From contig NC_049984.1 of NCBI RefSeq assembly GCF_000003815.2, positions 23,901,805 through 23,965,804 on the forward strand: a stretch of DNA of 64,000 nucleotides, in the 5' to 3' direction. The stretch's first letter is position 1. Each line of letters starts with the position of its first letter. This DNA comes from Branchiostoma floridae (Eukaryota; Chordata; Leptocardii; Amphioxiformes; Branchiostomatidae). The notes beneath the pieces are model-generated. The model was not told the DNA's origin. It searched no databases and was given only the letters and a program-made list of their open reading frames with translations. Shown here in pieces: positions 2,886 through 58,283 of the stretch. Position numbers and translations under genes: made by a program.

Positions 2886-3850
2886 AGAAATTGCCAGGAA
2901 TAGAAAACAATTTTCATTCTTACGGCATTCCAGCTGATTTTTGCTCTCGTGAGAAGGGGGACGCAAAAATGGTGTTCGTATGTTCGAAAAGGTGTCTGAT
3001 GCACGTTAAAGTGGAATGGCAAGCAACTTCCCCCTGTTAAAATGTACCCTGCTCTGGAAACAGTGAGGAAACTTGTTGACCTGTGTTCCTCTAGGTGAAA
3101 AACAATAAACCTGTTACACCTCACGCTTGCGGCTGTGGTTCACGTTCTGTTTACTTTCAATACTCCCAGGTAACAACCATTACTATATCACCCATTCTTC
3201 GTAAACGTGTGCAATTGCTGTCGCACGAGAAGATCACCATAACAAATTACCAAGTTACGCTCTAACGTTGACTTTGGTGGTTTAATGTCACCAGTGGACA
3301 CTAGAAATGTAACTAGTAACACTGATCGCGGTACCACGGCAAGCAAATGATGTTCGATACTGCGAGGTGTACCCGGTGTAAAGTTGGACTTGAACGTTCA
3401 CACCGCCCCCGGAACCGGAAGTGCAACATGTTTTTTTAGGCCCTACGTTAGGCTAAGTGATCCAAGTGATCCAAAGAGTCCTTTCCTTTGAAAGTCAAGT
3501 TGCGGTTATCATCTTAAAGGTCATTGGGGAGGGGCCGTGACCGATCCCAAACTAGCGGCAAGAAACACGTGCCCCGGTAAAATTTCGGCGTCCCTTGATT
3601 TTTGCAACTTCAAAGATTATGATGACTAAAAACAAAGAACAAGGTGTGGTGCTCCGGTAAGTAACAAAGAACACAGGAAAATGACTCCTAGAAAAATGTA
3701 CATTTCACCACTTCTAGAGAGTATAGGTCTAAGGTGACTTAACCGAGGAGGGAAAAAAGTAACAAAAAAGCAGGAAATTCATTCTACCACCTAAAAGCAT
3801 ATTTAAAAAGAAAAAGATATGATGACTAAGTTTAAAACAATACACGTGCT
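2886..3850. other. Non-coding upstream flank of the cytokine gene
   Basis: No coding segment is supported here. It contains simple A-rich runs and no repeat family that I can match elsewhere in the window. Any distal promoter or enhancer of the cytokine gene would lie here, but no element is recognisable beyond the TATA-like site at 3853. Confidence 0.4.
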
Positions 3851-3852
3851 AC

Positions 3853-3858
3853 TATAAA
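3853..3858 (+). promoter_or_regulatory. Candidate TATA box of the cytokine gene
   Basis: TATAAA lies 121 bp upstream of the proposed start codon at 3974. A transcription start about 30 bp downstream would give a 5'UTR of roughly 90 nt. Only the motif and its position support this. Confidence 0.35.
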
Positions 3859-3973
3859 GTTGGTTTGGACGTCCATGTGCTGACAATAAGAGCCCAGGAT
3901 CATCCCAAAGGCGCTTCTACTGGACCGAAACCGACCGTTCTACAGCAACTTTACCTGGTGCACCAGCCCCGAT

Positions 3974-6900
3974 ATGTCTTCTCAACACACAGGTAAAAAA
4001 TGTGTAGTCGATTTTGCCAATGAAATGTTTCTGACTTAATTAGTATAAGGTAGTATCTCACTGCAATTGGGGCACCGGTGCAGCACTGTGAAATTTGTTC
4101 ACTGAGGCACATTGTTATATGTAAAAGTTTAACTTAGAAGAAAAAAAATACACAAAACGTAAGAAAACTTGTTCTTTATCTCTGAAATTCGTTGAGTAAT
4201 CTTTCGAACCCCACAGTGCCGCACTGGTGCCCCAAGTGCAGTGAGGTCAGTGAGGTACCACCTTTAGAGAGAAGAGATGCTGCTACATATGTCTAAGCAC
4301 TTCTATACTAAGTTTCAGGTCATTTGTTTGTTTAACCAGGGTACATGAGCCAAAAAGTACTTTTTGGGTAAAAATGACCGAAAATCGCAAAATCAAGCAT
4401 TTTGTTGTACTGTATGTCTAAACTGTTTGTAACATGACGATGACTTCCCGTTTCATTGTTCGACAGTAACTCTGCTACTATCATGGGCGCTGTTCCTGGT
4501 GACGGTTGTCCGGACTGTCTCCTCCTTTCCAGCCGGGGACTTTCGACCGATGGACCGACAGCCTCGCTTCGTTCACCACGCTCACATGAACCCCTACAGT
4601 CCTTGTGAGAGAAGGGGGTTCAGGAAAGACCTTCAGCTGACGGCAAAAACCATCCAACGGACCAACGACACTCTGACAATGATGGTAAGCAACTGTTATA
4701 TCCACTGCAACTGGTAGTTTCAATGTTGCGGTGTTTTTTTTCTGTTGCCATACTTTTTTTTCCGTGGTCTTATTTTCAACATCATTGATAGCTTGTAGTA
4801 ACGTTAAAGACTTGCAGAAATACAATTGAATACAATTTATTTTTTAACGATCTAGAGGATCATTTCCTCGCTATTAGATTGAAATATTTTTCATGTGATA
4901 ATTCGGTCGGGAAGTAATGTTAAAACGTCTTCAAAAAGTGCGACTTGGGGCATCCGAGGGCGAATTCAAATGATATGCATGACGTCATTTTAGAGAGTCG
5001 CGTTCTTCTAGTAGCTCTACCCCTGTCCGCTGTAATGGCGTCTTGTACTACAGGTCGTGTTAGTACAAAGTCCAGTAGAAGTTATTGTGTCGCAGGAGGC
5101 CCACATGGCGTTAGCTGTAAGAATAGTCAGTCTACCGAGGGGATATCTATGCACAGATTCCCCAAAGTTAAAAATGACAGAACTGTGGCTGACAAATTGA
5201 GAGTCTCAGCGAGCTAGAAAACAGTGTACAAAATTATGTATCAAGTTTGTTCAGAGGCATCGGCATGGTTCCTTCCGCGACATCTACGGCTCCGCACACT
5301 TCGAGCTCCGCACACTTCGAGCCCTCGTGCTTCAACATGAACCTTGAGATTATATTTGGGAGAGCTGTGGGATGACCAGAAGGATTATCGCAGGAAAAGT
5401 TCCAACTATTGACACCGCTGGTCTGCCGACTCCCAGTCACGGAACGCACGCGGAGAAGGGTGGATTCGCCACAGTTTATCACAGCTGCAGGACGTTTATC
5501 TGTCACATACTAGTAGTAATTCGCCCTGTAAATTTACCTTGTATTTCGCTTATTCTGGTCATAACTGCGGTGCCATTATTGTGAAGTACTTGTACGCTTA
5601 GACTCCGACACAAAACAGCACAAATGATTCTTGGATTTTACATCTTTGTCGGCGTCCGGATAGATTTCATAACAAAGTGAACCGCTTGTACCGAACTCGT
5701 AACAACAATGTCAAACGACGCTGTCCCAAGATTTTCAAGCACGAAAATTTGCTGACCGTATTCAAAATACGTTGGAAAAATTGTCACTAGATTTTGTCAT
5801 GAATATTGTAGTTCTTGGTCTCAGTAAAACCAAGTTACGAGCGAATCTGCGATTTTTCGTCGTCAACAACAACAACTCTAAGAAAAATGGCCCCAAAAAA
5901 GATGGCGGCCGTGCGCTAAAATCCTGAGACTTTTCGAATTTTCTTTCACGGAAACACCAGTCTCACTGTCTGTATGTTTTTCCTCGAATCACTAGGAGCT
6001 TACGAAATCTGTCTGTTGTGTAGTGTCTTTAGCGGTGGACATGTTGTTGATAGGTGAGTTAAAATAGTTTGGTTTTGTATAAAAACTTCCGAAGCGTAAC
6101 CTGAGCATGTAAACAAAGGAAAATATATCTGGGTTGCGGGACCACAAGCATGTACATACTCGTTACTATGTCATCGATAACTCGTTTTTGCTCGTGTAGC
6201 TACAAACTTGGCACTTTTGTCGCTAGATTTTGTCATGAATATTGTAGCATTGATATGTAGTACTGATATGGTCTCCGTAAAACCTAGTTACGAGTGAATC
6301 TTGGATTTTTCGTCGTCAACAACAAAGAAAAATTCCTCACAAAAAAATGGCGGCCCCGTGCGTGCCATGCGCTATTATTTAACCACACTTTTCGAATTTT
6401 CTATCACGGAAACACCAGTCTGTGTGTTTTCCTCGAATCACTGGGAGCTTACGAAATCTGTCTGTTGTGCAGACAAATATGAGACAGAAAGAACAGTCAC
6501 TATCAAAATGTTTCACGGACTCGTCACAATCTGGAGGCGTTTAGCTATCGGCCGTGCTCACGACTAGAAATAGTCAGTCTACGACGTACTATCTATCCGA
6601 TAAAAGCTTACAGGTTTGTAAATAAACACATACTTTGAGTGGGAATGTATTTTGAGTCGCATTTCTTGTGGCAATGAGGTTGCTTCTCATTTTAAATCCT
6701 GGTGAACTGTACGTAGTTAGTTGCTCAGCTGTTGTATATTTGTACGCGACCAGTTAGTCCCGGTTTCGCTAGCAGGCACAAGCGGAGACCGCAAAGAGGC
6801 ACAAACTTCTGCGCTTCCGCTAGAAAACATCTTCAAATTAATGTACAGCATGGCCTCCTTACTGAGGATAATGTAAGCTCATGCTATCATTTGTGTATAG

Positions 6901-9173
6901 TAGAAGCGATGGCTGTTTATCCCCGCTTATTCCACACACTACAATAATGAACTTTCTCCCCGCTTGCGTTACGCACGCTTGGTACGTGCTTCAACTTCAA
7001 GTGCCTCTAAGATATATTTTAGTGGCGTGAATACGAACGAAATTCCCTTCAAGTGAAGTGAAGTGTGTGTTCTTTAGTCGTGCCGAGTTTCGTCAATGAA
7101 TTATGTTTCCTTTATAAGATACGGGTCTATCAAATGTACATTATTCCCCTAGTCAACCATACCAGCTAGTAGGGACTAACTAAAATGACGTCACGGCGTG
7201 TTCCTAATTAGTTCCAGCAAAGAGCTCAAAGTACACATTTTTATGTCGCTGTTTGAGGGACTTCCGGACGGACAATTGATTTGAAACTTGCATTGACTTT
7301 TTCAGAAAAGATCAAATTTTTACATTATTGGTAGAAAATGCTACAGACGATTTCATTTCAGTTACACTTTAAGGTCCGTGTTATTATCTCCATGAAAAAT
7401 AGGGATATTCATTTGGGTGTGCCTGTCTGTCTGTCTGTCTGTGTTTCCAGACTTTTGCAGTTAGCATAACTCAAGAACCTCTTGACGAATTGCGATGATA
7501 TTTGGTATGTGGGTAAGTGTTGAATAGATAAAGGTCAAGGTCGATTTTTAGCCCCCTAGTATGTGACCTTGGTACTCCAGCAGAAATTCCATTTTATGTA
7601 TCTTTTGACCTGGACATGCCATGGTCTTCTTTGGTGACAAATAGCTTGTGTTCTAAAGAAGACGTGATGTATGTTTGGGTCCCCTAGCAGCTTGCTCTGG
7701 TGCTGCAGGGGTGTTTTTGTCAAAATCTTCCGAGGAGAATAACGGAACAAAGTAACGACGGATTTCCGTGATATTTAGTACATGTATGCAGTGATCTTTG
7801 CCAGGAGATGTTATTTGTATAGTAACATTGATCACCACAAAACTTATTGATTTTTTTTACAGAAACAGGAGCTTTTCATGTCGGATGATTGGTCTCTACC
7901 CACTTATTTCGAGGTGAGTAACTTTGCCATGGCTTTATTCATTATGATTAGTCAAGAATATATTGGTTCAAGAAAAGTGAAAAGTTTTTTATTTTATTTT
8001 CATCGATTGCCACATACTGTAAATGCAGAAACTTTCGCGGTGGTTTAATATTCGCGGTTTTCGCGGTGGCCGCTTCACCGCGAACTTAAAACCACCAGGA
8101 ACATTTTTCCATGGCTTTAAAAGACTACAGTGCATGGTGCTTCCGCGAAATTAAAACCACCGCCAAAAAGTCACTTTTCCCGCTACCGCGAAATTAAATC
8201 CCCGCGAACTTAAATGCATTTACAGTATCCCTCTCTCTCCCTCACACAAACACTCATAGCCACACACACACGCATCCGTAAATAGTTTCATCAGTTTTTA
8301 AGAGACTCTTTTAACACAACAACATTTTTACCCCGAAATTTCGGTGACCGTCTGTCACCTTCCTCAGGGCAATTCTAAGTTCGCTGCGTTACAGCGTGAA
8401 CCAGTCAAAATGAACACAAGATACAAGTACACACACACACTTAGTAAACATAATGAAATGTTTAAAATGAAATATCATACATTATCCAGGAGGACAGGGG
8501 TCTGGTTGCACTGTTCCGTAACCTCAGCAGTTTCGAGCAGACCATCCCAAGCGTCATCCTGGAAGCACAAGATCTGGACGACTACAGCGACACCTTGGGG
8601 CAGTCGATGTATCACACCGGTAGCGAGCTGAACAAGTTGCTGTTCAAACTAAGCATTACGGTAAGAAACCACGTGTTGCTAGCCTGATTAAATCTCGCTT
8701 ATAGCAGCCTGCCCAGCAACATCTGGCCGGCCTCTGTGGGGAGGGGCCAGTTACACCCTTGGGTAGCAGAGCTTGTGTTACACAGACTAATCTGTTGCTA
8801 TGAACAAAAAAAAAAAAAACATTTCAATGAATTGCGTACACGGATTTGCTCTTCTTTATTCATCGTTTTTAATCCCGAGACGGAAAATTATGCCCCCTGG
8901 CTGCTTTCCTCAGCACTGCAGCAGAACCTTCTATCTTTCATCATGTGCATGCTATTTTCGTTGATCGAAATATTTCGTTTCTCTCCGTTTTGCTAGTTGA
9001 GGGCGGCTGGGGAGTTGGGCGATCAGGACTGGACGGGCGAGCCCATTCCCCTCCAGGACGTGGGGGGTAGCCGTTACTGGCACCATGTTCGAGACTTCGC
9101 CTTCTTCCAACATCTGCTTGGAATTCTGCAACTGCTAAAAGCGCAACTCGAGGCTAGGTTGGCGGAGTGTTAG
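3974..9173 (+). CDS. Secreted class I helical cytokine, IL-6/CNTF/CLCF1-like, five exons
   Basis: Seen: coding exons 3974-3992, 4467-4684, 7863-7913, 8490-8660 and 8997-9173, all with GT-AG borders, join to 211 codons plus TAG. Intron phases are 1, 0, 0, 0. Exon 1 has only 19 coding nt (MSSQHT plus one base). Residues 7-26 form a hydrophobic signal peptide (TLLLSWALFLVTVV). Four amphipathic stretches follow: about 58-85, 97-123, 126-158 and 178-208. Sequons are at N73 and N107. Only two cysteines occur in the mature chain (C53 and the last residue, C211). The last helix (SRYWHHVRDFAFFQHL) has an aromatic-x-x-basic start followed by DF, as at the receptor site III of CNTF/CLCF1/LIF; an EPIPLQDVGG loop precedes it. 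Known: the 1-0-0-0 phase pattern and tiny first coding exon are typical of long-chain class I cytokine genes such as IL6, G-CSF and EPO. Inferred: an extracellular ligand for a gp130/LIFR-like receptor acting through JAK-STAT. Sequence identity is too low to name an orthologue; other long-chain cytokines remain possible. Confidence 0.75.
4046..4266. mobile_element. MITE (GGTGGTATCTCACTGCA family), cytokine intron 1
   Basis: A fold-back element whose ends read AAGGTAGTATCTCACTGCA and, inverted, TGCAGTGAGGTACCACCTTTA, each followed by GGGGCACCGGTGC or its complement. Further copies are at 51402-51676 and 52270-52516 in IMPA1 introns. Non-autonomous: nothing coding is inside. Confidence 0.75.
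5785..6470 (+). repeat. Direct duplication (~240 bp x 2) in cytokine intron 2
   Basis: Positions about 5785-6021 and 6220-6470 are diverged copies of one segment. Both run from CTAGATTTTGTCATGAATATTG through TTTTTCGTCGTCAACAAC and ATGGCGGCC to GGAGCTTACGAAATCTGTC. The two copies differ by many small indels. Neither keeps a common long reading frame, so I do not call them exons. Confidence 0.65.
7385..7850 (+). repeat. Interspersed repeat, 'tcaagaa...ccccctag' family
   Basis: Starts with a TCCATGAAAAATAGGG block and a CTGT run. It shares the motifs ataactcaagaac, gccccctag, and tgctgcaggggtgtttttgtcaaaa with the elements at 40160-41270 and 47525-48175, and in reverse with parts of 29000-30950. 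It is an old, internally variable non-autonomous element in cytokine intron 2, ending just before exon 3 at 7863. Confidence 0.55.
8014..8228. mobile_element. MITE with ATACTGTAAATGCA ends, cytokine intron 3
   Basis: The terminal inverted repeat ATACTGTAAATGCA is matched at the right by TGCATTTACAGTAT. The interior is built of repeated CGCGAA(A/C)TTAAA and CCGCGAA words. About 215 bp long and non-coding. TA dinucleotides at the borders suggest Tc1/mariner-type mobilisation. Confidence 0.75.
8681..8757. repeat. Short interspersed repeat, cytokine intron 4
   Basis: TAGCCTGATTAAATCTCGCT, followed by a GGCCGGC-rich segment and GGGGAGGGGCCAG. The reverse complement is at 61262-61340, with related pieces at 42590-42665 and 48325-48425, so this is a dispersed family. 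It begins about 20 bp after the exon 4 donor. Confidence 0.6.
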
Positions 9174-9957: not shown

Positions 9958-10096
9958 AATAAAAGGTTGAGAATCGTCACTAGAAGCCTTTATATTGTAA
10001 ACGTTTTGATCTTAATTCTATTTTGTTTGAAGTTAAGAAATCTATATATTTATGAACAAATGATTATTATATTGTAAAAGAAACAATAGAAATAAA
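9958..10096 (+). terminator. Candidate polyadenylation signals of the cytokine gene
   Basis: AATAAA occurs at 9958-9963 and again at 10091-10096, downstream of the stop at 9173 with no other gene between. Use of the first would give a 3'UTR of about 0.8 kb. Signal choice cannot be decided from sequence alone. Confidence 0.5.
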
Positions 10097-13723: not shown

Positions 13724-14082
13724 ATAACCCTTATCGGCAGGGAGAAACCTGGCTTGTCGAAGGGAGCTAACATCGGAGTTCCCGGCCAGCTTGGACCGAC
13801 GACGAGAAGCGGGGACACGGCCAGCGGTTCCGGGCAAGTCGTTAGGCCCGCCTGGTGGAAAGCTGGCAAGAACGGACATCCCAGCCCACAGTGGAGACAG
13901 CTAGGACACCGACTCCGTAAAGTTTGGAACATTCTTATATCTTAATACTCATATGATTCTACACCACCTTCAAGGTAATATCTGAATACTTGTTTACTGA
14001 TATAATAATATAGTATAAAAAAAATATAAGTCTTACTTCTTGTAGCTGTATTTACACCTTCAATATCTTTAATTTCAAGGAC
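13724..14082 (+). other. Probable 5'UTR of the LINE
   Basis: GC-rich to about 13920, then AT-rich up to the start codon. No ORF1-like protein with zinc knuckles or coiled coil is recognisable; the only frame over 60 codons here (13754-13945) has no familiar motif. Confidence 0.35.
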
Positions 14083-17000
14083 ATGGAGAAAAAATCTGCG
14101 CTAGTTTTTTCAAGTTGGAATATCCAAGGCAGTGTTAAGAAAAAGTTTAGCGATGTAGAGTTTTGTAATTACTTTAGAAATAGTGATATTGTCTGTATAC
14201 AGGAAACCTGGGCAGACAATTATGTAGATTTTCAGTTCCCAGGGTATAGTTTGTTTAGTAGTAATAGATGTAGGAATAAGAGGGCAAAACGTAATTCGGG
14301 TGGGGTTGCGACTATTTTCAAAAGTTCGTTCAGAAAGGGGATTACAAAATTAGAGAGTAGTTCAGTCGACAGCATTTGGTGCAAACTTGACAAAAAATTC
14401 TTTGGACTCGAAAAAGACCTATACCTTTGCAACATTTATATCCCTCCCGAATCCTCAAAGTCCATACAAGTCGACCCATTTGATACATTATCCATTGATA
14501 TCTGCAAATTCTCCAATCTTGGTGACATAATCATCCTAGGGGATCTCAATGCTAGAACAGGATCTGTTTTGGAAACCTATTTTAGTATTGATTCCCCGGA
14601 TGACCCCCTGACAAAAGATGTTTTAGATACAAAGAAAAGGAATAATAGAGATTCTAAAGTAAACAATTACGGTAAACGCCTTATAGAATCGTGCTCGTCG
14701 GCTGATTTGACCATATTGAATGGCAGATTCGCGGGGGATCTAAAAGGTGATTTTACATGTTATCATTATAATGGTTCAAGTGTTGTGGACTACTGCATCA
14801 CTCAAAGGTCGATGTTAACCGATATACAATATATGAATGTTAATTCTATATCGCCATTTTCCGATCACTGTCACATCTCTTTCTCATTGTCTGCAAAGCA
14901 CTCTCCTCTAGTCCTGAAGGAGGATAGCCAATGTTATAATCCTAAACCAACACAATTCATTTGGACTGACGAATCAAAACAATTATATTTAGATACTATA
15001 AACAACAAAGACACGCATTCAAAACTGAGAGATTTCTGCAACAAAACATTCCACTCGTCAGAGGAGGCCGTAACAAGCTTCACTGAAATTTTATTAGATG
15101 TTTCCAAAAGTTCTCTTAGAATAAGACGTAAGATACAAAACAATAAAAAGACACAAATCAAAAAGAACAAAATTTGGTTTGATCAAAATTGTTGGTCCCT
15201 ACGTCAAAGAGTAAAAAGATTATCTTTAGAACTGAGGAAAGAACCATGGAAACAAGAAACCAGAACGAAGTATTTCACAGCCTTGAAAGAGTACAAAAAA
15301 ATTATCAAACATTCTAAACGGAATTATAAAGCCAATCTATTACGTGATCTAGAAACATTAAATGAGAAAAACCCCAAACAATTTTGGTCATTGTTCAATA
15401 CTCTTGACAAGGAAGTAAACGGCACAAAACATAACGGTAACATAGATCCTAATATCACAAGTAAAGAATGGATAGAACACTTTCAAGGATTAAATAATCT
15501 GGTAAAAAACAATGAATTTGACAGTTCTTTTGAAAAAAGTGTCACTGATTCTCTTAAACATTTAGATAAAAACGCCCAAAATTCATTAGATTACCCTTTC
15601 ACGACACCAGAAATTATGACTGGTTTGAAATCACTAAAATCTGGAAAAGCATGTGGTATTGACTCTATTTCAAACGAGATGTTAAAATATGGGGCAGAAA
15701 AGATATGCGAACCACTGGTCATTCTCTTGAATACAATCCTTTCCAACAACAAATTTCCATCTAACTGGACCACAAGTATCCTTACACCAATTTTTAAATC
15801 TGGCGACAAATCTAACGTAGATAATTATAGAGGAATCGCCATCTCAAGCTGTCTGTCCAAATTGTTCACATTCCTTTTAAATACTCGCTTACAGAAATTC
15901 GTTGAAAGCAATTGTCTGCTAGCGGACACTCAATTCGGATTCAGAAGAAAGTGCCGAACCTCTGACAATGTATTTATCCTGAAAGCTCTTATTGAGAAAT
16001 ATATTGAAAAAAAGAGAGGGAAATTATATGTTTGCTTTGTTGACATGAAGAAAGCGTTTGACAGTGTATGGCGGGACGGTTTATTCTACAAATTGTTAAA
16101 TCTTGGTGTTGGTGGGAAATTCTTCAATGTATTGCAATCCATGTACCTCAATGTTAACTATACTGTCAGACTACAAAATGGTTTGTCAAGCCCCTTTGTT
16201 TCCACATGCGGAGTAAGACAAGGCTGCAATCTCAGTCCATTATTATTCAATATTTTTATTAACGACCTACCTCAATGCTTTGCTGATAAATGTGACGCCG
16301 CAATTTTGAATTCTAAATCACTCAACTGTTTATCTTGGGCAGATGACTTAGCCTTGATCTCATTGTCGAAAGAGGGGCTTCAGAATTGTATCAATAACCT
16401 GGAATCTTATTGCAACAAATGGAAATTAAGGGTTAATGTATCTAAAACGAAAGTACTGGTTTTTACAAAAGGTTCTATTAACAGATTATCAAACAAATTC
16501 TATATATATGGCAAAGAAATACTAGTAACCGACAGTTATACTTACCTTGGTATTCCCCTGACTTCTTCGGGAAAGTTTAAAGCAGCCAGGAAATATTTAA
16601 AGAATAAAGCCATGAGAGCTTTATTCAAACTAAAGTCACTTTTATTCTCAGAAAAGAACATTCCAATTCACCTAGGAATGAGCCTTTTCAACAAGTTTGT
16701 ACTGCCTATTTTACTGTACGGAGCCGAACTCACATGTTTTGACCAAACTTCTAAAGCAATCAAAATTATTGTATCAAAACAAATTCCAGAATCTTCACCC
16801 AAAACTGTTTTCTCTTCCTTTTTAAACAAACTCCATCTAGAGGGAGGTCTCCCAGCAACTGTTAGGAAGAGTGTGTCTTCGGACCTCACTCATACTTACG
16901 TCATCCATTTTAAGAAAAGATCAGACAAGGATAGATTATTGAGACTGGCATCAGGAATGAAATTAGAAAATGACAACTTCGCAATTGAAAATATACGACT

Positions 17001-17820
17001 TTCTTCACATACTAGTATCCCAGAATTTGACACCATTGACATGAGTTTCCAAAAATTTTTACTCGGAGTACATGCGAAATCATCAAATGACAGCATCCGT
17101 AGTGAGTTAGGAACCTTTCCCATTTCGATCAATGCTGAGATACAATTAATCAAATACTGGCACCGTCTAGCAAACTTACCCGAAGATTCTTTACTGCGTG
17201 AAGCATATGATGTTGTACTTTCCGGCGAATACGACTGGACAAATCACGTAACTGACATTCTCAACTATAATGGTTTTGGACATGTATGGACAAACCCGAG
17301 GTTGTATCATGTTAATATGCTAACCGACCAATTACGACTCCGTTTACAGGATATATACATACAAGAATGGTATTCTTCTATCCAGAATAACTCAAAACTT
17401 TGCATTTATTCTACGCTAAAGGAAAGATACGGACAAAAGAAGTATCTTTCGAATGTACACAGTTTCGAACTTCGTAGAGCAATTACAAAGATGAGAATCA
17501 GTAGTCACAAACTAAATATAGAAGCCGGAAGATATACTAAAATTCCCCGTGACCAGAGGTTTTGTCCATTTTGCCCAAATGAGATCGAAGACGAACGTCA
17601 CTTTGTTATGGATTGTTCTCGATATAATGATAAACGCACAGAGCTGTTCACATTACTTTCCGCTTGTTCTAAAGAATTTGCTACTCTCTGTTCGATAGAT
17701 AAATTCAACTACATTCTTGGAGGCGATAACCCTCACTGTGTACAAGTAGGCAAATATATCCACGAATGTTTATACCGTAGAACTAATAGTGTTAATGACA
17801 TGCTAGACCCTATATGTTGA
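14083..17820 (+). CDS. LINE polyprotein: APE endonuclease, reverse transcriptase, C-terminal zinc motif
   Basis: One uninterrupted frame of 1245 residues encodes the enzymes of a non-LTR retrotransposon. Residues about 5-265 form an APE-type endonuclease with SSWNIQG, QETWAD, LGDLNARTG (near 152) and SDHCHISF (near 260). Residues about 510-800 form the reverse transcriptase, with GIDSISNEMLKYG, PIFKSGDKSNVDNYRGIAIS, FVDMKKAFDSVW, GVRQGCNLSPLLFNIFINDL and the catalytic WADD (near 752). Near residue 1160 a CPFC...HFVMDC motif gives a CCHC-type zinc site, as in many LINE C-termini. No frameshift or stop interrupts it, so it may be recent. An ORF1 was not found. The clade is not assigned: C-terminal style matches the fragments at 23240-24690 and 58878-59230, pointing to a local LINE group. 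Confidence 0.92.
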   Translation: MEKKSALVFSSWNIQGSVKKKFSDVEFCNYFRNSDIVCIQETWADNYVDFQFPGYSLFSSNRCRNKRAKRNSGGVATIFKSSFRKGITKLESSSVDSIWCKLDKKFFGLEKDLYLCNIYIPPESSKSIQVDPFDTLSIDICKFSNLGDIIILGDLNARTGSVLETYFSIDSPDDPLTKDVLDTKKRNNRDSKVNNYGKRLIESCSSADLTILNGRFAGDLKGDFTCYHYNGSSVVDYCITQRSMLTDIQYMNVNSISPFSDHCHISFSLSAKHSPLVLKEDSQCYNPKPTQFIWTDESKQLYLDTINNKDTHSKLRDFCNKTFHSSEEAVTSFTEILLDVSKSSLRIRRKIQNNKKTQIKKNKIWFDQNCWSLRQRVKRLSLELRKEPWKQETRTKYFTALKEYKKIIKHSKRNYKANLLRDLETLNEKNPKQFWSLFNTLDKEVNGTKHNGNIDPNITSKEWIEHFQGLNNLVKNNEFDSSFEKSVTDSLKHLDKNAQNSLDYPFTTPEIMTGLKSLKSGKACGIDSISNEMLKYGAEKICEPLVILLNTILSNNKFPSNWTTSILTPIFKSGDKSNVDNYRGIAISSCLSKLFTFLLNTRLQKFVESNCLLADTQFGFRRKCRTSDNVFILKALIEKYIEKKRGKLYVCFVDMKKAFDSVWRDGLFYKLLNLGVGGKFFNVLQSMYLNVNYTVRLQNGLSSPFVSTCGVRQGCNLSPLLFNIFINDLPQCFADKCDAAILNSKSLNCLSWADDLALISLSKEGLQNCINNLESYCNKWKLRVNVSKTKVLVFTKGSINRLSNKFYIYGKEILVTDSYTYLGIPLTSSGKFKAARKYLKNKAMRALFKLKSLLFSEKNIPIHLGMSLFNKFVLPILLYGAELTCFDQTSKAIKIIVSKQIPESSPKTVFSSFLNKLHLEGGLPATVRKSVSSDLTHTYVIHFKKRSDKDRLLRLASGMKLENDNFAIENIRLSSHTSIPEFDTIDMSFQKFLLGVHAKSSNDSIRSELGTFPISINAEIQLIKYWHRLANLPEDSLLREAYDVVLSGEYDWTNHVTDILNYNGFGHVWTNPRLYHVNMLTDQLRLRLQDIYIQEWYSSIQNNSKLCIYSTLKERYGQKKYLSNVHSFELRRAITKMRISSHKLNIEAGRYTKIPRDQRFCPFCPNEIEDERHFVMDCSRYNDKRTELFTLLSACSKEFATLCSIDKFNYILGGDNPHCVQVGKYIHECLYRRTNSVNDMLDPIC

Positions 17821-19905: not shown

Positions 19906-20132
19906 CTTTAAAATGCTTCATTTCAATTCACAATATTAGTTTCCTTTTGGGAATAAGTTACTGTTAAAATGTTCCAATTTTTGCGCAGGGGTGACTTTGT
20001 CCAATGTTGCGTGGGAATGGGTATGGATGAAATATGCTGTATTTGCACCCAAGCAAATGTCGGCCTTTCTAGTTATATACAATGTTTGTAACCTCTTGGA
20101 CAATGTTCCGTGTGCCCGGTGGCCGTATAACT

Positions 20133-20466
20133 TAAGCTAAGGGCACAACCCGCCGTACGTGCAATTTGTCCGTACATTTTTTTGGGAGGCCACGTCCGCC
20201 ACGTATTTCTGAAAACATTCAGGCTGTACAGGGCAGGCGCGTCGCCCGTACTGTTACGTACGGGGGGCGAATCCACAGCCCGATGGCACAAAAAGTTTTG
20301 CCTGCACGTGAAGTTCTACGGCGGGTCAAAAAATCCGTCGGATTCCTTACGAGTTCGTACGGATCGGAGGCGGTACTTACCACTTACGGATCCCCCCAAA
20401 ATGCCCACGTTTTGGCACGTAGACAGCACGTATTTGCACGTACGGCGGGTTGTGTCCCTAGCTTTA
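20133..20466. mobile_element. Fold-back MITE, CCGCCGTACGTGCAA family, copy in duplication 1
   Basis: Terminal inverted repeats TAAGCTAAGGGCACAACC with CCGCCGTACGTGCAA and the mirrored TTGCACGTACGGCGG, then GTTGTGTCCCTAGCTTTA. About 334 bp. The interior has CGTACTGTTACGTACG, itself nearly palindromic. The frames inside are too short to mean anything. Confidence 0.8.
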
Positions 20467-21122
20467 CTTAATTTAGTTCGAAATCCCGCTCCTCCAAAAC
20501 ACTTGATCCTCCATGGCCCTTTGTAGCTCTTTAGTATCATTCAGACTTGTGTCACTGGCGGTAGGCTGTATATATATGTATATATAGGTAACACTGGGAC
20601 TTCCCCTACCTCATTTTCTTTATTGGTGTATTAAAAGGCATAAACAAGCCATTTATTTGATTAGAATATGGATTTGACGAAAACACTAAAAAAATGTAAA
20701 AGGATATGACGAGTAAAATTTGCTATATGAAAGTAGAAAAACTGGACATGGTTTTGGAAACGGTCAAACGTTTCAACTGGAATCCACCAATTTTTGTCAG
20801 TGACACTGAAGTGATCTGGAAGAAACAGGTCTTTTATACCCTATCCAAATTGTCTTGACTTTGCGCTTTACATTAATTTGTTTCCATTGGAATCCAACTT
20901 GTCTTCGGCCTGAATTTGTCTAACATGTTTCCCATTGGACGGCTAAAATTGTCTTCATTCTTAGATAGGGTATAAAATACCTGTTTCTTCCAAATCACTT
21001 CAGTGACGAAAACTGGTGGATTCCAGTTGAAACGTCTGACTGTTTCCAAAACCATATCCAGTTGCTTGAGTAACTACTTTTTTTGGCGTATCTTATTACC
21101 TGGATGTCTAACCTACATCGAC

Positions 21123-21178
21123 GTATCTTGGGACAAAAATTCCACCTCTTTCGTTCCTAAACCAGACAGCGTTCCAGG
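21123..21178 (+). other. Candidate upstream exon end of transporter copy 1
   Basis: The sequence ending ACAGCGTTCCAG is followed by a good donor, GTACGTAAT, at 21179. The same end and donor are kept in copy 2 at about 33254. The next acceptor would be the AG just before ACTAGCAGATATG (exon from 22001). No common start codon in frame is visible, so it may be 5'UTR. Confidence 0.3.
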
Positions 21179-22010
21179 TACGTAATATTATACTTTCTTT
21201 CTGAGTTTGAAAGAGTTACTTGAATTTTGAAAGACTTTGTATAAAGGGACTAAATTCTGACAACAAATGATTGCATCCGTCGGAGGCAAGACCCTTCCTC
21301 CATATTTTCAACTTAGCATGGTGGTAATATTTTAAAAAGATTTAGGATATGAGTAAAATAAGAAAATACATGAAAGATAACCTGACTAAAAAATCTGTTG
21401 CTATCTTAAATGACTGTGTTGTTTTTATATATATAAGATAAAGTCCCAACCTTGTAAGAAATTTGCATGACCTATACTTACAATTGTTTTAGAAGATAGA
21501 AAGTGTCTATGTTTGTCAATGCATAATTATCTTGATAAACCACATGCTTTTTCGTCAGTTTTCTTTCTAGGCGTGAAGTGAGATATGAGCTAACACCCGC
21601 CATATAGACCCGAATATAATTTGTGTTCAATATTAAAGATTGAATACTTTATCTGCGACGGTAGTCAACATCATGTTACAATATTTTAAGAACCATATAT
21701 CCGTACACAAAATAAAGCGCTTACCAACAAGCTTTCGATCAGTCCTCTGAGCCTTATCAAGTTAAACTGACTCAAAGCCTAAGTCACACATCCAGACCGG
21801 AAGTGTGACGTCAGCAAAGGGTCAAAGGTGCTTAACAGTCGGTATCGGCCGCCGTCTCGGTTGAGGGATATGATTATATGATTATAATTCATTAATTATG
21901 CAAACCAGATTTTTATTTGTATGATTTGCAGTCAATTGTTTACATTTAACCTTTTTTCTATTTGTATGCTCAACATTATGTCACTTCTTCCGTTACAGAG
22001 ACTAGCAGAT

Positions 22011-23060
22011 ATGCAGCATCTAAGGAGCATCCTTAAGTCGGGCCTAGGTGTCCTACTAGCAATGATGGTTGCATCTGGATCCGCACTGACTTCTATTCTC
22101 ATGCGTCTAACCAAACGAGGAGGCGTACAGAACTTTCAGTCCATCTTCTGGAACCAAGTCGCACAGATAATCCTCGTCTTGTGTCTTACCATTGCCGTTC
22201 GACCCAAACTCCGAAGGGAAAGTTGGAAGGAGACCGCTGTTTTGGTTGTTGGAGGAATACTCCGCGTTGTGGCAACAGTGTGTTTGTGCCTGTCGTATCT
22301 ACATGTTTTACCGGGAAACACCAGCTCTGTTGTGTACGGCCTTGGCCCCGTTCTCACCATTGGACTAGCAACACTGATCACCAAGGAACGACCAACTGTC
22401 GTCCACATCATCGGGATGGTCATCTGCATCGGTGGGGTGACCATGGTCGGGGTTTCCATGAATGCCAAGGAGACTAACAATCAGACTGTGCAACAACAAG
22501 TAGTGACTTTACTGTATCCAATTTCTGCTAGTGCTCTCCTCACCCTGTGTTGGGTCTTACTGAGATGGCTCTCCAAACGAGGCGTTCCTCTTGTAACACA
22601 CATGTTCTACTACAGCATTGGTGGTATTCTCCTCTTACCTCTTGCTTACATAGTAGAGAAGCCGGTGTGGAGTTTTTCTCCAGATACATGGGGGCTACTA
22701 GTTGCCCAGACGCTTGCTTATGCTACGCAATATCTCTGTAACGCTGCCGCCATTCACAACGAGACTGCCGCAACAGTTCAAATTGTAAAGGTCCTGACCG
22801 TTCCTTCGGTATTTGTCCTCGGTTTCTTCGTTCTAGAGATGGTACCTAATGTTTTAGAAATATGCGGTGGGGCTATAGTGACGGTAGGGGCGATGGTGGT
22901 GGGTCTATGGACCTGGAGATTAAATCTTAAGCAGCAACGCCGTGAACTAGGGGTGGGTACCGGTACAGAAAAGTCAGGTCCAGGTTCGGTTCAAGTTCTG
23001 AAGATCAGGTCCAAGTCCGGACCTGAACCTGGACCTGATTCAGTTTGTGAAAACGTGTGA
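22011..23060 (+). CDS. EamA/DMT-superfamily transporter, SLC35G-like, copy 1
   Basis: A multi-pass membrane protein of about 349 residues from the ATG at 22011. I chose this start because an acceptor AG lies at 21999-22000, so the in-frame codons further upstream are probably intronic. About ten hydrophobic segments are arranged as two EamA halves. The first includes SGLGVLLAMMVASGSALTS, VVATVCLCLSYLHVLPG and SSVVYGLGPVLTIGLATLIT followed by KERPTVVHIIGMVICIGGV. The second repeats the theme with AAIHNETAATVQIVKVLTVP. The loop with NNQTVQQQ separates them. This layout fits drug/metabolite transporters such as SLC35G. The substrate is unknown. The last 38 residues (from codon 22947, GTGTEKSGPGSVQ...) are hydrophilic and derive from a MITE. 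A near-identical paralogue is at 34090-35145 and a partial inverted one at 63472. Confidence 0.85.
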   Translation: MQHLRSILKSGLGVLLAMMVASGSALTSILMRLTKRGGVQNFQSIFWNQVAQIILVLCLTIAVRPKLRRESWKETAVLVVGGILRVVATVCLCLSYLHVLPGNTSSVVYGLGPVLTIGLATLITKERPTVVHIIGMVICIGGVTMVGVSMNAKETNNQTVQQQVVTLLYPISASALLTLCWVLLRWLSKRGVPLVTHMFYYSIGGILLLPLAYIVEKPVWSFSPDTWGLLVAQTLAYATQYLCNAAAIHNETAATVQIVKVLTVPSVFVLGFFVLEMVPNVLEICGGAIVTVGAMVVGLWTWRLNLKQQRRELGVGTGTEKSGPGSVQVLKIRSKSGPEPGPDSVCENV

Positions 23061-23230
23061 ATGGACGATGGTCCATTTCACTACAACGAAATCTGGTTTG
23101 TGGAGTATTCGACTCACACTGGCGTTTTAAAATCCTACAAGGTTAACTGTCTCTGTACGGTTGACTGTAAAGCTTGGTAGAAATGACTATACATTCTACT
23201 CTACTTCGCTCTTGTTATTTTCCTCGATCG
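22948..23230 (+). mobile_element. Exonised hAT-type MITE supplying the transporter C-terminus
   Basis: From TAGGGGTGGGTACCGGTACA the sequence follows the free element at 51795-52233 (TAGGGCTGGGTACCGGTACA, then the GGTCCAGGTCCGG repeats, GATTCAG, GGTCCATTTCA, TGGCGTTTTAAAAT, CTTGGTAGAAAT). Its first ~113 nt are translated as the end of the transporter; the rest is 3'UTR. The right terminal repeat is missing: the LINE fragment's tail follows. Confidence 0.8.
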
Positions 23231-23239
23231 GTATGATTC

Positions 23240-24690
23240 AGAATGAATGAATGAATGAACTTTATTGCACGACATTTGTACATGGTACAATGTAAGGCAA
23301 CGGTAATAGATAAATTTGTACAATGACACTACATATTACTATAACTACATACAGTACAGGAATGCGAACGTAAATGGCGTACTGACATAGTGCAATATAC
23401 ATGTACAAGTTAAACGATTAGGTCTGCTATTGTACAATACATTCTCTCTTTTCTGAGCATTGCATATGTAGTCTGGACATGACATAAGTAGATTGAAAAT
23501 ACATGTGTTGATCTTTGGCAAGGATGCACTAGGTTTACATGTGATCATATTCATTAATTTTTGTCTCACTGCGTTATATGCAGGGCATGCCATTAGAAAA
23601 TGATATTCGTCTTTAGAGTCCATTCCAAGACACCATGCGGATGTTTGTTGCCATTGTTTAGAATTGATTTTAAAGTTTTGTAATTATATGTCTAGGACAT
23701 TTGATACTTCAGAAATATTTTTAACACTGTTTCAACTTTATAAATATCTCCCTGGTCCTGTAAAACTTTGGAAATATTCATGGTGTAGAATTGGATAGAC
23801 TTCTAATGGTTTCTAAATAATGATAACAGCATTCTACCATTATTTACCATTTTCTACCATTTTCTACCATTTTTTGTAAATGGTTCGGTGGGCTGTGAAG
23901 ATAGCAATTCACACATCCTTGCAAAGTATGGTTGGGTGCCATGCAACAATGGCCCACCACAAAGGATCCACCAGTGCCCAGCAGGGAAATCTAAAAATAT
24001 ACAGATGCAACAATAGGGCTTACTTTTATGGGGGCAATAAACTAATTTTACCATTTGGCCAGGTTTACCATTTTTTGTAAATATTTGTAAATGTGAAATA
24101 ATCACAGAGAGGTTTCACAATTATTCTAAATAAAGATAGTTTTGTACAGCTACTTTCAAAATGTTTCTCAAATATTCAAAGAAATTCAAATAAATGAGTA
24201 TTTTCTTAGGCAATTTTTGAAAATAATTTAATTATTGTGGCTCAGATATTCTTTTATTCAAAATAATTCAGACTAATTATAAATATCGCCTTAAAACCCT
24301 CATGGTGTCTAGGAATGGACTCTAACACCACCTTTAAATGAGGGCATTGCCTCTGGTTGGTATACATGTATTACGATCCTTTTCTATTCCACGCAGTGTG
24401 AACTGATTCTTAATTTCGTTATGTTAACAATAAAGCTTTATGATGAATTGACGAAAAGTATTTTTTCATATTCTGTGAATTGACTTTGATTTGGGAATAA
24501 GTTTTTAGTTTGTTACAACTCTTTATTTCTTGTAGCCATCCAGAGAGGAATGCGTCTTTTAGACGTTCTTTGAATATGTTTCCAAAGTGTTTGGTATCAA
24601 CGGCAGGGTTTAACCAAACATTTTGGAAACCATTCCTGCACAAATTTGGAACATGGACAGTTTGAGATAATGACATTCTAGCGATTGAAC
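23240..24690 (-). pseudogene. 3' fragment of a LINE, split by a later MITE
   Basis: On the minus strand, 24690 to 24323 encodes VHVPNLCRNGFQNVWLNP, FKERLKDAFLSGWLQEI and CNKLKTYSQIK. Then 23615 to 23345 encodes DEYHFLMACPAYNAVRQKL. These match, in order, the C-terminal part of the LINE at 14083-17820 (NGFGHVWTNP, LQDIYIQEWYSSI, then ERHFVMDCSRY), so it is the same type of element. The 3' end has a tail of GAATG units (plus strand 23242-23260). It is broken by frameshifts and is present in both duplication copies. Confidence 0.75.
23616..24322. mobile_element. TA-flanked MITE inserted only in duplication copy 1
   Basis: Terminal inverted repeats GAGTCCATTCC(A/T)AGACACCATG lie at both ends, with the target dinucleotide TA at 23614-23615 and 24323-24324. 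Copy 2 has the uninterrupted site (TTCGTCTTTAACACCACC near 35682). It is 707 bp and non-coding. Its interior shares ATTCTACCATTATTTACCATT-type words with 27390-27520 and 28600-28870. Confidence 0.88.
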
Positions 24691-25464
24691 GGTGACTTAA
24701 CAGTTAAAGAATTTCAGTACCTCGGTCTCCGTTTAGTTGATTAGAAGGGACGCAAAACATTGTTTCTCTGCTCGACCAAAAATTCAGTCTTCTTTCCCTG
24801 ACGCGGCGTCACTTCAAAAGAAAGGGATTGTGAATGATTTCTATACCTTAAATGAACATTATGAAGTGTCCTTCCTCGCATGGAATGATTTTTTTTGGTA
24901 TCAAATTCAATTTTGGAACAGTCCACTTCTGCATAAAGAGGAGGGTGGAGTTAGAGTTGCCGAATTTGCTCATACTAAGCAAATACAGTCCTTTCTAGTT
25001 TCGTTCGATTTATTGCTTGTAGCCAAGTCTGGAAATTCAGATTAAAAGCTTTGATCGGGTATGTTGACACTCGCTACGTGTCATCTATGCCTCCTGGCGA
25101 TTCATATCATTCTTGCAGCGATCTCCTCTGCAAATAATTTATTGAACTGCTAGGAGGCAATTTGGATCCATATGGCGGTTTGATACCCTAATATATTAGT
25201 AGCACTTTCTATGAATTCAAGAGCATTGTACGGAATTTAGAAAGTTAGTGTCAGCACGAGTGACATAACCTCACTACAACATCAAATCTTATTTGTTCGG
25301 AAAATAGTAACATGTATGGATGCAAGTATGGAAAATATGTCGGATTTGTTTTTATATTTCATGTTGACCTTCCATTGTCGTTTGTGTGATCCAAACTTAC
25401 GATCTACAATAACTCAGAATCCCCATTAATAAAGAATTATTAAGAAATAGAATTGATAAAAAAA
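24691..25464 (+). other. Conserved non-coding part of the duplication
   Basis: Nearly identical to 36400-37147. It contains a frame of about 100 codons (24737-25045) with no recognised domain, kept only because the copies are recent. Positions 25040-25300 are a copy of the CCACGTG(T/C)CAT dispersed repeat. Confidence 0.5.
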
Positions 25465-31899: not shown

Positions 31900-32100
31900 T
31901 TCACAATATTAGTTTCCTTTTGGGGATAAGTTACTGTTAAAATGTTCCATTTTTGCGCAGGGGTGACTTTGTCCAATGTTGCGTGGGAATGGGTATGGAT
32001 GAAATATGCTGTATTTGCACCCAAGCTGCCGGCCTTTTTAGTTATATACAATGTTAATAACCTCTTGGACAATGTTCCGTGTGCCCGGTGGCCGTATAAC

Positions 32101-32444
32101 TTAAGCTAAGGGCACAACCCGCCGTACGTGCAATTTGTCCATACGTTTTTTTGGGAGGCCACGTCCGCAAGGTATTTCTGAAAACGTTCAGGCTGTACAG
32201 GGCAGGCGCGTCGCCCGTACTGTTACGTACGGGGGGCGAATCCACAGCCCGATGGCACAAAAAGTTTTGCCTGCACGTTAAGTTCTACAGCGTGTCTGCG
32301 TGCTCAAAAATCCGTCGGATTCCTTACGAGTTCGTACGGATCGGAGGCGATACTTACCACTTACGGATCCCCCCCAAAATGCCCACGTTTTGGCACGTAG
32401 ACAGCACGTATTTGCACGTACGGCGGGTTGTGTCCCTAGCTTTA
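32101..32444. mobile_element. Fold-back MITE, CCGCCGTACGTGCAA family, copy in duplication 2
   Basis: The same element as at 20133-20466, duplicated with the segment. This copy keeps the GCGTGTCTGCGTGCTC stretch that is also in the fragment at 2490 but lost from copy 1, so copy 1 has an internal deletion there. Confidence 0.8.
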
Positions 32445-34089
32445 CTTAATTTAGTTCGAAATCCCGCTCCTCCAAAGCACTTGGTCCTCCATGGCCCTTT
32501 GTAGCTCTTTAGTATCATTCAGACTTGTGTCACTGGTATTAGGCTGTATATATATATGTATATATAGGTTACACTGGGACTTCCCCTACCTCATTTTCTT
32601 TATTGGTGTATTAAAAGGCATAAACATGCCATTTATTTGATTAGAATATGGATTTGACGAAAACACTAAAAAAATGTAAAAGGATATGACGAGTAAAATT
32701 TGCTATATGAAAGTAGAAAAACTGGACATGGTTTTGGAAACGGTCAAACGTTTCAACTGGAATCCACAAATTTTCGTCAGTGACACTGAAGTGATCTGGA
32801 AGAAAATGGTCTTTTATACTCTATCCAAATTGTCTTGACTTTGCTTTACCTTTGTTTCCATTGGAATCCAAGTTGTCTTCAGCCTGAATTTGTCTAACAT
32901 GTTTCCCATTGGACAGCTAAAATTGTCTTCATTCCTAGTTAGGGTATAAAAGACAAGTTTCTTCCAAATCACTTCGGTGACGAAAACTGGTGGATTCCAG
33001 TTGAAACGTCTGACTGTTTCCAAAACCATATCCAGTTGCTTGAGTAACTACTTTTTTGGCGTATCTTATTACATGGATGTCTAACCTTCATCGACGTAAC
33101 TGAAGAATTTTTTTCATTAGGCCCATAATTTCAGCAACTGAGTTGATAGTCGGCTTGGACTGGCTTCAGGACTCGTATCTACGTCGCGGAACGGAAATTT
33201 GTCTCTTAGGACAAAATTCCACCACTTTCGTACCAAAACCAGACAGCGTTCCAGGTACGTAGTATTATACTTTCTTTCTGAATTTGAAAGAGTTACTTGA
33301 ATCGACTTCACTACAAAGACTTTGTATAAAAGGGACTAAATTCTGACAACAAATTATTGCATCCGCCCAAGGCAAGACCCATCCTCCATATTTTCAACTT
33401 AGCATGGTGGTAATATTTTAAAATATTTAGGAAATGAGTATAATAAGAAAATACATGAAAGATAACCTGACTAAAATATCTGTTGCTATCATAAATGACT
33501 GTGTTGTTTTTATATATATAAGATAAAGTCCCAACCTTGTAAGAAATTTGCATGACCTACTTACAATTGTTTTAGAAGATAGAAAGTGTCTATGTTTGTC
33601 AATGCATAATTATCTTGATAAACCACATGTTTTTTCGTCAGTTTTCTTTCTTGGCGTGAAGTGAGATATGAGCTAAGACCCGTCATATAGACCCGAATAT
33701 AATTTGTGTTGAATATTAAAGATTGAATACTTTATCTACGACGGTAGTCAACATAATGTTACAATATTTTAAGAACCATATATCCGTACACAAAATAAAG
33801 CGCTTACCAACAACCAATCTATCAGTCCTCTGATCCTTATCAAGTTGAACTGACCCAAAGTCTAAGCCACACATCCGAACCGGAAGTGACGTCAGCAAAG
33901 GGTCAACGGTGCTTGACAGTCGGTATCGGCAGCCGTCTCGGTTGAGGGATATGATTATATTATTATAATCAATTAATTATGCAAACCATTTTTATTTGTA
34001 TGATTTACAGTAAATTGTTTACATTTAATATTTTGTCTACTTGTATGCTCAACATTATGTCACTTCTTTCGTTACACAGACTAGCAGAT

Positions 34090-35145
34090 ATGCAACATCT
34101 AAGGAGCATCCTTAAGTCGGGCCTAGGTGTCCTACTAGCAATGATGGTGGCATCTGGAGCCGCGCTGACTTCCATTCTCATGCGTCTGACCAAACGGGGC
34201 GGCGTACAGAACTTTCAGTCCATCTTCTGGAACCAAGTCGCGCAGATGATCTTCGTCTTGTGTCTTACCATTGCCGTTCGACCCAAACTCAGAAGGGAAA
34301 GTTGGAAGGAGACCGCCGTTTTGGTTTCAGGAGGAATAATCCGCGTTGTGGCAACAGTGTGTTTGTGCCTGTCGTATCTACATGTTTTACCGGGAAACAC
34401 CAGCTCTGTTGTGTACGGCCTTGGCCCCGTTCTCACCATTGGACTAGCAGCACTGATCACCAAGGAACGACCAACTGTCGTCCACATCATCGGGATGGTC
34501 ATCTGCATCTGTGGGGTGACCATGGTCGGGGTTTCCATGAATGCCAAGGAGACTAACAATCAGACTGTGCAACAACAAGTAGTGACTTTACTGTATCCAA
34601 TTTCTGCTAGTGCTCTCCTCACCCTAGGCCTGTGTTGGGTCTTACTGAGATGGCTCTCCAAACGAGGCGTTCCTCTTGTAACACACATGTTCTACTACAG
34701 CATTGATGGTATCCTCCTCTTGCCTCTTGCTTACGTAGTAGAGAAGCCGAAGTGGAGTTTTCCTCCAGATACATGGGGGTTACTAGTTGCCCAGACGCTT
34801 GCTTATGCTATGCAATATCTCTGTAACGCTGCCGCCATTCATAATGAGACCGCCGCAACAGTTCAAATTGTAAAGGTCCTGACCGTTCCTTCGGTATTTG
34901 TCCTCGGTTTCTTCGTTCTAGAGATGGTTCCTAATGTTTTAGAAATATGCGGTGGGGCTATAGTAACGGTAGGGGCGATGGTGGTCGGTCTATGGACCTG
35001 GAGATTAAATCTTAAGCAGCAACGTCGTGAACTAGAGGTGGGTACCGGTACAGAAAAGTCAGGTCCAGGTTCGGTTCAGGTCGTGAAGATCAGGTGCAAA
35101 TCCGGATCTGAACCTGGACCTGATTCAGTTTGTGAAAACGTGTGA
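34090..35145 (+). CDS. EamA/DMT-superfamily transporter, SLC35G-like, copy 2
   Basis: Paralogue of 22011-23060: about 351 residues from the ATG at 34090, with the same ten-segment EamA pair. Differences are few and mostly conservative: GAALTS for GSALTS, SGGIIRV for VGGILRV, YSIDGIL for YSIGGIL, and two extra residues in TLGLCWVLL. An acceptor AG precedes ACTAGC at 34080, as in copy 1. Its frame is fully open, so both copies look functional. The C-terminal tail from codon 35032 is again MITE-derived (GTGTEKSGPGSVQVVKIRCK). The aspartate in YSID lies in a membrane segment and could matter for transport or be neutral. Confidence 0.85.
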   Translation: MQHLRSILKSGLGVLLAMMVASGAALTSILMRLTKRGGVQNFQSIFWNQVAQMIFVLCLTIAVRPKLRRESWKETAVLVSGGIIRVVATVCLCLSYLHVLPGNTSSVVYGLGPVLTIGLAALITKERPTVVHIIGMVICICGVTMVGVSMNAKETNNQTVQQQVVTLLYPISASALLTLGLCWVLLRWLSKRGVPLVTHMFYYSIDGILLLPLAYVVEKPKWSFPPDTWGLLVAQTLAYAMQYLCNAAAIHNETAATVQIVKVLTVPSVFVLGFFVLEMVPNVLEICGGAIVTVGAMVVGLWTWRLNLKQQRRELEVGTGTEKSGPGSVQVVKIRCKSGSEPGPDSVCENV

Positions 35146-35309
35146 ATGGAAGGTGGTTTGTGGAGTATTCGACTCACTCTGGCGTTTTAAAATCCTACAA
35201 GGTTAAGCGCCTCTGTACGGTTGACTGTAAAGCTTGGTAGAAATGACTATACATTCTACTCTACTTCGCTCTTGTTATTTTCCTCGATCGGTATGATTCA
35301 GTATGAATG

Positions 35310-36400: not shown

Positions 36401-36744
36401 ACTTAACAGTTAAAGAATTTCAGTACCTCGGTCTCCGTTTAGTTGATTAGAAGGGACGCAAAACATTGTTTCTCTGTTCGACCAAAAATTCAGTCTTCTT
36501 TCCCTGACGCGGCGTCACTTCAAAAGAAAGGGATTGTGAATGATTTCTATACCTTAAATGAACATTATGAAGTGTCCTTCCTCGCATGGAATGATTTTTT
36601 TGTGTATCAATTTCAATTTTGGAACAGTCCACTTCTGCATAAAGAGGAGGGTGGAGTTAGAGTTGCCGAATTTGCTCATACTAAGCAAATACAGTCCTTT
36701 CTAGTTTTGTTCGATTTATTGCTTGTAGCCAAGTCTGGAAATTC

Positions 36745-57600: not shown

Positions 57601-58252
57601 CCACATGTACAAATGTAGGAACAGGGTGTAGTGTGAGATACCACAGGTAGGAATGAAGGAGTAGTGTGGGACACCACAGGTAGGAATGGGGGAGTATTGT
57701 TGGACACCGCGGGTAGGAATGGGGGAGTAGTGTGGGACACCACAGGTTGGAATGGGGGAGAAGTGTGGAACACCAAAGAAATTTGGAGTAGTGTGGGACA
57801 CCACAGTTAGGAATGGTCGAGTAGCGTGGGACATCACAGGTAGGAATGGGGGAGTAGTGTGGGACACCACAGATAGTAATGGGGGAGAAGTGTGGCACAC
57901 CACAGTTAGGAATGAGGGAGTAGTGATGGACACTACAGGTAGGAATGGGGAGTAGTGTGGGGCACCACAGATAGGAATGGGGGAGAAGTGTGGGACACCA
58001 CAGGTAGGAATGGGGGAGTAGTGATGGACACCACATGTACAAATGTAGGAACAGGGTGTAGTGTGAGATACCACAGGTAGGAATGAAGGAGTAGTGTGGG
58101 ACACCACAGGTAGGAATGGGGGAGTAGTGTTGGACACCGCGGGTAGGAATGGGGGAGTAGTGTGGGACACCACAGGTTGGAATGGGGGAGAAGTGTGGAA
58201 CACCACAGTTAGGAATGGGGAGTAGTGTGGGACACCACATGTAGGAATTGGG

Positions 58253-58283
<31 letters not shown>

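Follow-up and report, generated by a model that had tools for sequence, protein, structure and literature searches.

Whether an invertebrate chordate possesses a ligand of the IL-6 or erythropoietin kind, and to which branch of the class I helical cytokines such a ligand would belong, is the question raised by a five-exon gene of Branchiostoma floridae. The gene lies in the 64,000-nucleotide stretch of DNA analysed here, hereafter the window (C6:23901805-23965804), and had been described from the letters alone, in an initial annotation, as a complete gene for an IL-6/CNTF/CLCF1-like four-helix cytokine. IL6 is reported in vertebrates only, in the available part of one source (PMC13203501), and the accessible portion of another lists for amphioxus the hormone GHl plus several unnamed genes that are divergent relatives of the type-I helical cytokines (PMC9010856). 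The genome searched was the window's own assembly (513 Mb, 431 contigs); a 19-chromosome B. floridae assembly is described in the accessible text of a further paper (PMC7269912). A literature search, which mostly stopped short of full texts, recognised no published description of the seven-gene family set out below. Our reading of the sequences is that the window protein is probably a secreted class I long-chain helical cytokine and one of at least seven genes, and we put the probability of this at roughly 0.78. With their intact cytokine-type layout, the seven amphioxus genes offer concrete loci at which to test which JAK-STAT ligands were already there before vertebrates.

The gene extends over positions 3974-9173 on the + strand, and its five exons, separated by four introns that are all GT-AG and have phases 1-0-0-0, encode 211 residues with no internal stop. 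The coding part of exon 1 (3974..3992) has only 19 nt, MSSQHT plus one nucleotide, and ends in phase 1. Exon 2 (4467..4684, 218 nt) supplies the remainder of the leader, a basic, His-rich N-terminal tail, C53, and the predicted helix A with an invariant N73-x-T75 sequon, and exon 3 (7863..7913, 51 nt; 51-81 nt across the seven-gene family) the end of helix A and the A-B loop. The predicted helices B and C are both encoded by exon 4 (8490..8660), whose 171 nt correspond to 57 codons, and exon 5 (8997..9173, 177 nt including the stop) carries the end of helix C, a C-D loop with an invariant W165-T166, the predicted helix D and the terminal C211. All five exons are read on the + strand. The genes for IL-6, G-CSF, EPO, TPO, GH and PRL likewise have five coding exons in phases 1-0-0-0, and a 19-nt first coding exon is found in IL-6 and LIF. 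The initial annotation had claimed both a complete five-exon gene and the architecture of the long-chain class I cytokines, and both claims are borne out; the same layout could be modelled in all seven genes of the family. The layout of five exons speaks for the class and for an unreduced form of the gene, but does not in itself favour the CNTF branch.

A protein search with the window protein matched six further genes in its own genome, and the protein of one of them, C12, recovered exactly this set of seven when used as the query. One relative (C6b) stands head-to-head with the window gene (C6a), start-to-start at about 4.8 kb and just beyond the window edge; two more (C4a and C4b) have about 275 kb between them, another two (C15a and C15b) about 8.5 kb, and C12 is the remaining single member. 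In all seven models exon 1 has 19 nt, exon 4 exactly 171 nt, the phases are 1-0-0-0, the introns are GT-AG throughout and there is no internal stop; the encoded proteins have 208-223 residues and are 36-97% identical in pairwise comparison. The 171-nt exon 4 is the top-scoring model in every one of the seven. For the paralogues, the 19-nt exon was selected in the knowledge of the window gene, from three to six mechanical candidates per gene with one 19-nt candidate each, and a comparison of C4a with C4b served to locate their exon 3. The window gene and its layout, recurring in 7/7 genes of the family, are far beyond chance. Values of dN/dS (Nei-Gojobori, point estimates) fall between 0.35 and 0.64 in 21 of 21 pairs, which indicates purifying selection yet fast evolution, as expected of a cytokine. 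The seven genes are a selected, apparently secreted family.

Independent support for the choice of so small a first exon comes from the conserved TATA box and the stretch upstream of it. The TATA box of the window gene, CTATAAAG, is at 3852..3859 (+), and TATAAA occurs 107-121 nt 5' of the ATG in all seven paralogues, with a second TATA box 16 nt upstream in C4a and C4b. Upstream of TATAAA the window gene carries GATGACTAAG (3821..3830, +), which we take to be an AP-1-like (bZIP) element; the identical 10 bases are present in four of the seven paralogues and GATGACTATG takes this upstream place in two (C15a, C15b), and in the upstream region of C12 neither GATGACTAAG nor GATGACTATG was found. 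Beyond the last exon, AATAAA at 9958..9963 (+) is a candidate polyadenylation signal, with another at 10091 and two ATTAAA before it. Intron 1 contains a MITE-like repeat with inverted ends (4047..4245, +), which lies outside the gene product and accounts, with 39 other places, for the 40 copies scored out of 3301 first-look candidates; the copies are 74-92% identical. A second repeat-like stretch, recognised by eye, occupies 8010-8225 in intron 3, where inverted ends TACTGTAAATGCA and TGCATTTACAGTA flank a CG-rich body.

The encoded protein had been described as secreted, with a signal peptide and four helices, and this description stands in part. A hydrophobic leader, ending near FP/LP, is the basis of the signal-peptide call; it was recognised by inspection and hydropathy rather than by a predictor. 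Together with the length of the chain, which is 208-223 residues in all seven proteins, it fits a secreted product with a mature form of about 160-200 residues, as in the long-chain class I cytokines. Hydrophobic periodicity at 100 degrees exceeds that of shuffled sequences in the predicted helices A (p 0.017), B (p 0.032) and C (p 0.013), less cleanly so in helix C, where the strongest angle is 160 and not 100 degrees, but it is not significant in helix D (p 0.30). Four helices in the window protein are therefore plausible from the sequence, with A, B and C carried by the periodicity and D not.

Several positions are invariant among the seven proteins. In the predicted helices they comprise the N73-x-T75 sequon of helix A and several leucines, and in the predicted C-D loop W165-T166. 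The sole invariant cysteines, C53 and C211, flank the predicted bundle; the two C6 and two C4 proteins have just this pair, and there is one more in C12 and three more each in C15a and C15b. In an up-up-down-down bundle helix A begins at the same pole at which helix D finishes, so that a bond between C53 and C211 would be sterically natural. The initial annotation had pointed to an FxxK-like motif in helix D, Y180-H183, and to an EPIPLQDVGG loop ahead of it. Position 180 is aromatic in 7/7 proteins when these are aligned, but the residue three positions on is variable (H, H, A, A, Y, Q and Q in C6a, C6b, C4a, C4b, C12, C15a and C15b), being histidine in two and lysine or arginine in none, so that the motif is half kept. 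The loop fails as a signature of the family: variants of it are present in five members and it is missing from C15a and C15b.

Sequence searches gave no link to any known cytokine. With the window protein as query no Pfam family was matched at E<=10, and some of the seven members matched three families between them, none of them a cytokine family; the family profile gave 20 matches in the PDB at E<=10, among which there was no cytokine and the best was YabA (E 0.002), and the single window protein found no cytokine in the PDB either. In the genome the profiles PF00758 (EPO_TPO) and PF06875 (PRF) had no matches. A profile search with IL-6/CNTF family models, which had been put forward as a check on the identification, thus came back empty in Pfam, in the genome (PF06875) and in the PDB. 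How much such silence means can be gauged from known relatives: human EPO as query found TPO only at E 0.49, TPO found EPO at E 0.21, and human CNTF and CLCF1 found no family member in the PDB besides themselves. Silence in Pfam and the PDB therefore says little, because the same searches fail between true relatives, and the lack of genome matches to the EPO_TPO and PRF profiles is not evidence of absence, because the control genomes were equally silent.

Two further comparisons were no more telling. HMMER run without filters did not lift known cytokines out of the range of the shuffles: 36 of 421 scored shuffles (600 made) came at or above CLCF1 and 2 of 421 at or above LIF, with TPO left unscored. 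Smith-Waterman comparisons reached p<0.05 against the IL-6 class in 5/28 cases forward and 4/28 reversed, against EPO, TPO, GH, PRL, leptin and G-CSF in 0/24 forward and 3/24 reversed, and against unrelated bundles in 1/12 in either direction. Two small values from this comparison, LIF with C15a (p 0.002) and IL-11 with C12 (p 0.003), were dropped, as reversed sequences give similar counts of small p.

When the family profile was compared with 13 cytokines by hhalign, CLCF1 came first with a score of 26.6 (single-comparison E 0.0022), and the other twelve scored 11.1-17.8; as yardsticks, CNTF against CLCF1, which are true relatives, scores 28.0, and GH against EPO, which are of one class, 11.9. 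The CLCF1 score was reached by none of 200 full shuffles and by two of 200 local shuffles. In global mode the alignment spans the whole length, and it is in register, helix C falling on helix C, the C-D loop on the loop and then the start of helix D on its counterpart, so that W-T is paired with WT, the aromatic 180 with the F of FLQK, and RDF with DDF. From the tryptophan to the aromatic residue the C15 genes and CLCF1 have the same distance, 9. CNTF, by contrast, scored 11.1, which is shuffle level, and a joint profile of CNTF, CLCF1 and CTF1 scored 22.4, below CLCF1 alone.

The register of the hhalign alignments points the same way. For CLCF1, IL-6, LIF and IL-11 the offset from the expected register is no more than 2.5 residues, G-CSF is off by 16.3 residues, CTF1 is out of register, and none of EPO, TPO, GH and PRL (0/4) is in register. 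Over the 13 cytokines, and with nominal helix midpoints and mostly working copies of the sequences, four are in register at <=8 residues (CLCF1, LIF, IL-6, IL-11; P 0.015), five at <=12 residues (CNTF added; P 0.022) and six at <=16 residues (leptin added; P 0.026). A test by groups gives P 0.002-0.003, for groups that were set after the data were seen. The likeness to IL-6-class cytokines is on this showing modestly supported, and the register may be said to lean weakly to the IL-6/LIF/CLCF1 side, which is a lean and not membership. The original description of the gene as IL-6/CNTF/CLCF1-like is supported in part: CLCF1 is the best of 13 and in register, but there is no echo in Pfam, the PDB or HMMER, nor in CNTF.

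These results bear differently on the possible places of the family among the cytokines. If the window protein were a gp130/LIFR-type ligand of the IL-6/CNTF/CLCF1 branch, that branch would predate vertebrates. CLCF1, among the closest known proteins, shares with it the N-terminal leader, the W-T of the loop and an aromatic residue at the site III position, in addition to the leading hhalign score and the register from helix C to the start of helix D. Against this, CLCF1 has K at the +3 position of FxxK, where the seven-gene family has H in two members and a non-basic residue in five, and the reversed-sequence control was not beaten. The terminal cysteine pair, which is invariant in the amphioxus family, is to our knowledge absent from CLCF1, and it is likewise unlike CNTF; the cysteine patterns of IL-6, LIF and IL-11 also differ from that of the family, and although these three share the register, each alone scores at shuffle level. 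The exons number three in CLCF1, according to the available part of the source (PMC8780587), versus five in the window gene. We regard this placement as rather unlikely, and the earlier suggestion that the gene dates the CNTF branch before vertebrates is unsupported, because the terminal cysteines are of the EPO/TPO kind, no cytokine family emerges from HMMER, CNTF stays at shuffle level and CLCF1 has three exons. The cysteines resemble those of EPO and TPO, in whose sequences a cysteine likewise stands ahead of helix A and another at the end of helix D. The EPO C7-C161 and TPO C7-C151 disulfides tie the beginning of helix A to the far end of helix D, and EPO too has five exons in phases 1-0-0-0, with phase-0 introns close to where helix B begins and where helix C ends. 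These features would suit a cytokine of the EPO/TPO type or of a sister group, but the window protein lacks the further cysteines of EPO and TPO, no profile alignment of EPO, TPO, GH or PRL is in register, and PF00758 is silent in the genome, as it is in the control genomes; we think this placement improbable. The FQHLL that the window protein and TPO both have in helix D might be added in its favour, and was rejected as a sign of descent (local match p 0.31).

Two further alternatives concern novelty and class. The family might be kin to GHl, reportedly described by Li et al. in 2014, and the window gene would then be a gene already on record. In the accessible text, GHl is a divergent, novel type-I helical cytokine of 208 residues (PMC9010856), the length also of C15a, but the published GHl qPCR primers, which are from B. 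japonicum (PMC5376476), match none of the seven genes; the comparison is by primers and description alone, and the divergence between the species weakens it. Primer P19 matched at best 17 of 25 bases in the seven genes, a level reached by 9 of 300 shuffled primers, and its apparent fit to the leader region at that level was rejected for this reason; P19 had no genome match with <=3 mismatches, and the degenerate P20 peptide no genome match. Identity or close kinship with GHl is, on balance, distinctly doubtful. It is about equally improbable that the seven genes form a secreted helical family unrelated to cytokines, having only general features in common with them. The absence of any HMMER link to a cytokine, and pairwise alignments no better than reversed, would agree with that; on the other side stands the combination of a short phase-1 exon 1, the 1-0-0-0 phases, an exon 4 that holds helices B and C, the terminal cysteines and the in-register profiles, and sequence searches miss true relatives too (EPO and TPO at E 0.49; CNTF and CLCF1). 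A bolder reading, which we put forward tentatively and at something below even odds, is that the seven genes are an expanded family of long-chain class I cytokines whose origin lies in the ancestor shared by the IL-6/CLCF1 and the EPO/TPO/GH branches, that their terminal disulfide is of the EPO/TPO type and their C-D loop and helix D are IL-6/CLCF1-like, and that they supply the missing ligands of the amphioxus gp130/GHR-like receptors. The seven genes look like early relatives of the vertebrate IL-6, CLCF1 and erythropoietin signals, and may reflect the condition that preceded the split between the EPO/GH and IL-6 branches.

Candidate receptors for such ligands are present in the same genome. 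The EpoR_lig-bind profile gave nine matches, of which two exceed the cut-off (one of these solely together with its neighbours in the frame), and among 14 control genomes two were matched, both prokaryotes and both below the cut-off. Three of the nine matches are sequences like the D1 domain of class I receptors (CLSxNLxxFTCWWxxGRD), at three places on C7, at 20.69, 20.65 and 19.44 Mb (L041, L040 and L042); two of the three are nearly identical, one is below the cut-off and has an Ig-like stretch nearby, noted by eye, and a WSXWS motif was not found in the three stretches. They are consistent with the GHR-like gene mentioned in the accessible part of the published account (PMC9010856), and can be regarded as candidate receptors for the seven-gene family. 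Four sub-threshold matches to IL6Ra-bind were judged to be chance, the + strand frames of the four loci containing neither a WSXWS-like motif nor a recognisable receptor frame. On the main reading, that of a secreted class I long-chain helical cytokine, the protein would leave the cell by way of its signal peptide and adopt an up-up-down-down fold of four helices, in which a C53-C211 disulfide would close the bundle by linking the beginning of helix A with the far end of helix D; through the faces of the bundle it could cross-link type I receptors, for which the GHR-like sequences on C7 are an example, and this cross-linking would lead to JAK-STAT activation.

The remainder of the window contains some features of other kinds. 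Retrotransposon frames are found at 14014-17820 (+), with reverse transcriptase and endonuclease domains, and at 45212-47317 (-), with reverse transcriptase. Between them lies a tandem duplication (20058-24783 and 32027-36489) with a spacing of about 12 kb, whose matched pieces are 94-99% identical, and each duplicate carries an intron-free EamA transporter frame (21888-23060 and 33955-35145), presumably SLC35G-like. Towards the far end of the window is a large minisatellite (56465-58324) with units of about 32-33 bp and a higher-order spacing of 430 bp, and the bin 56001-58000 shows a strong GC skew.
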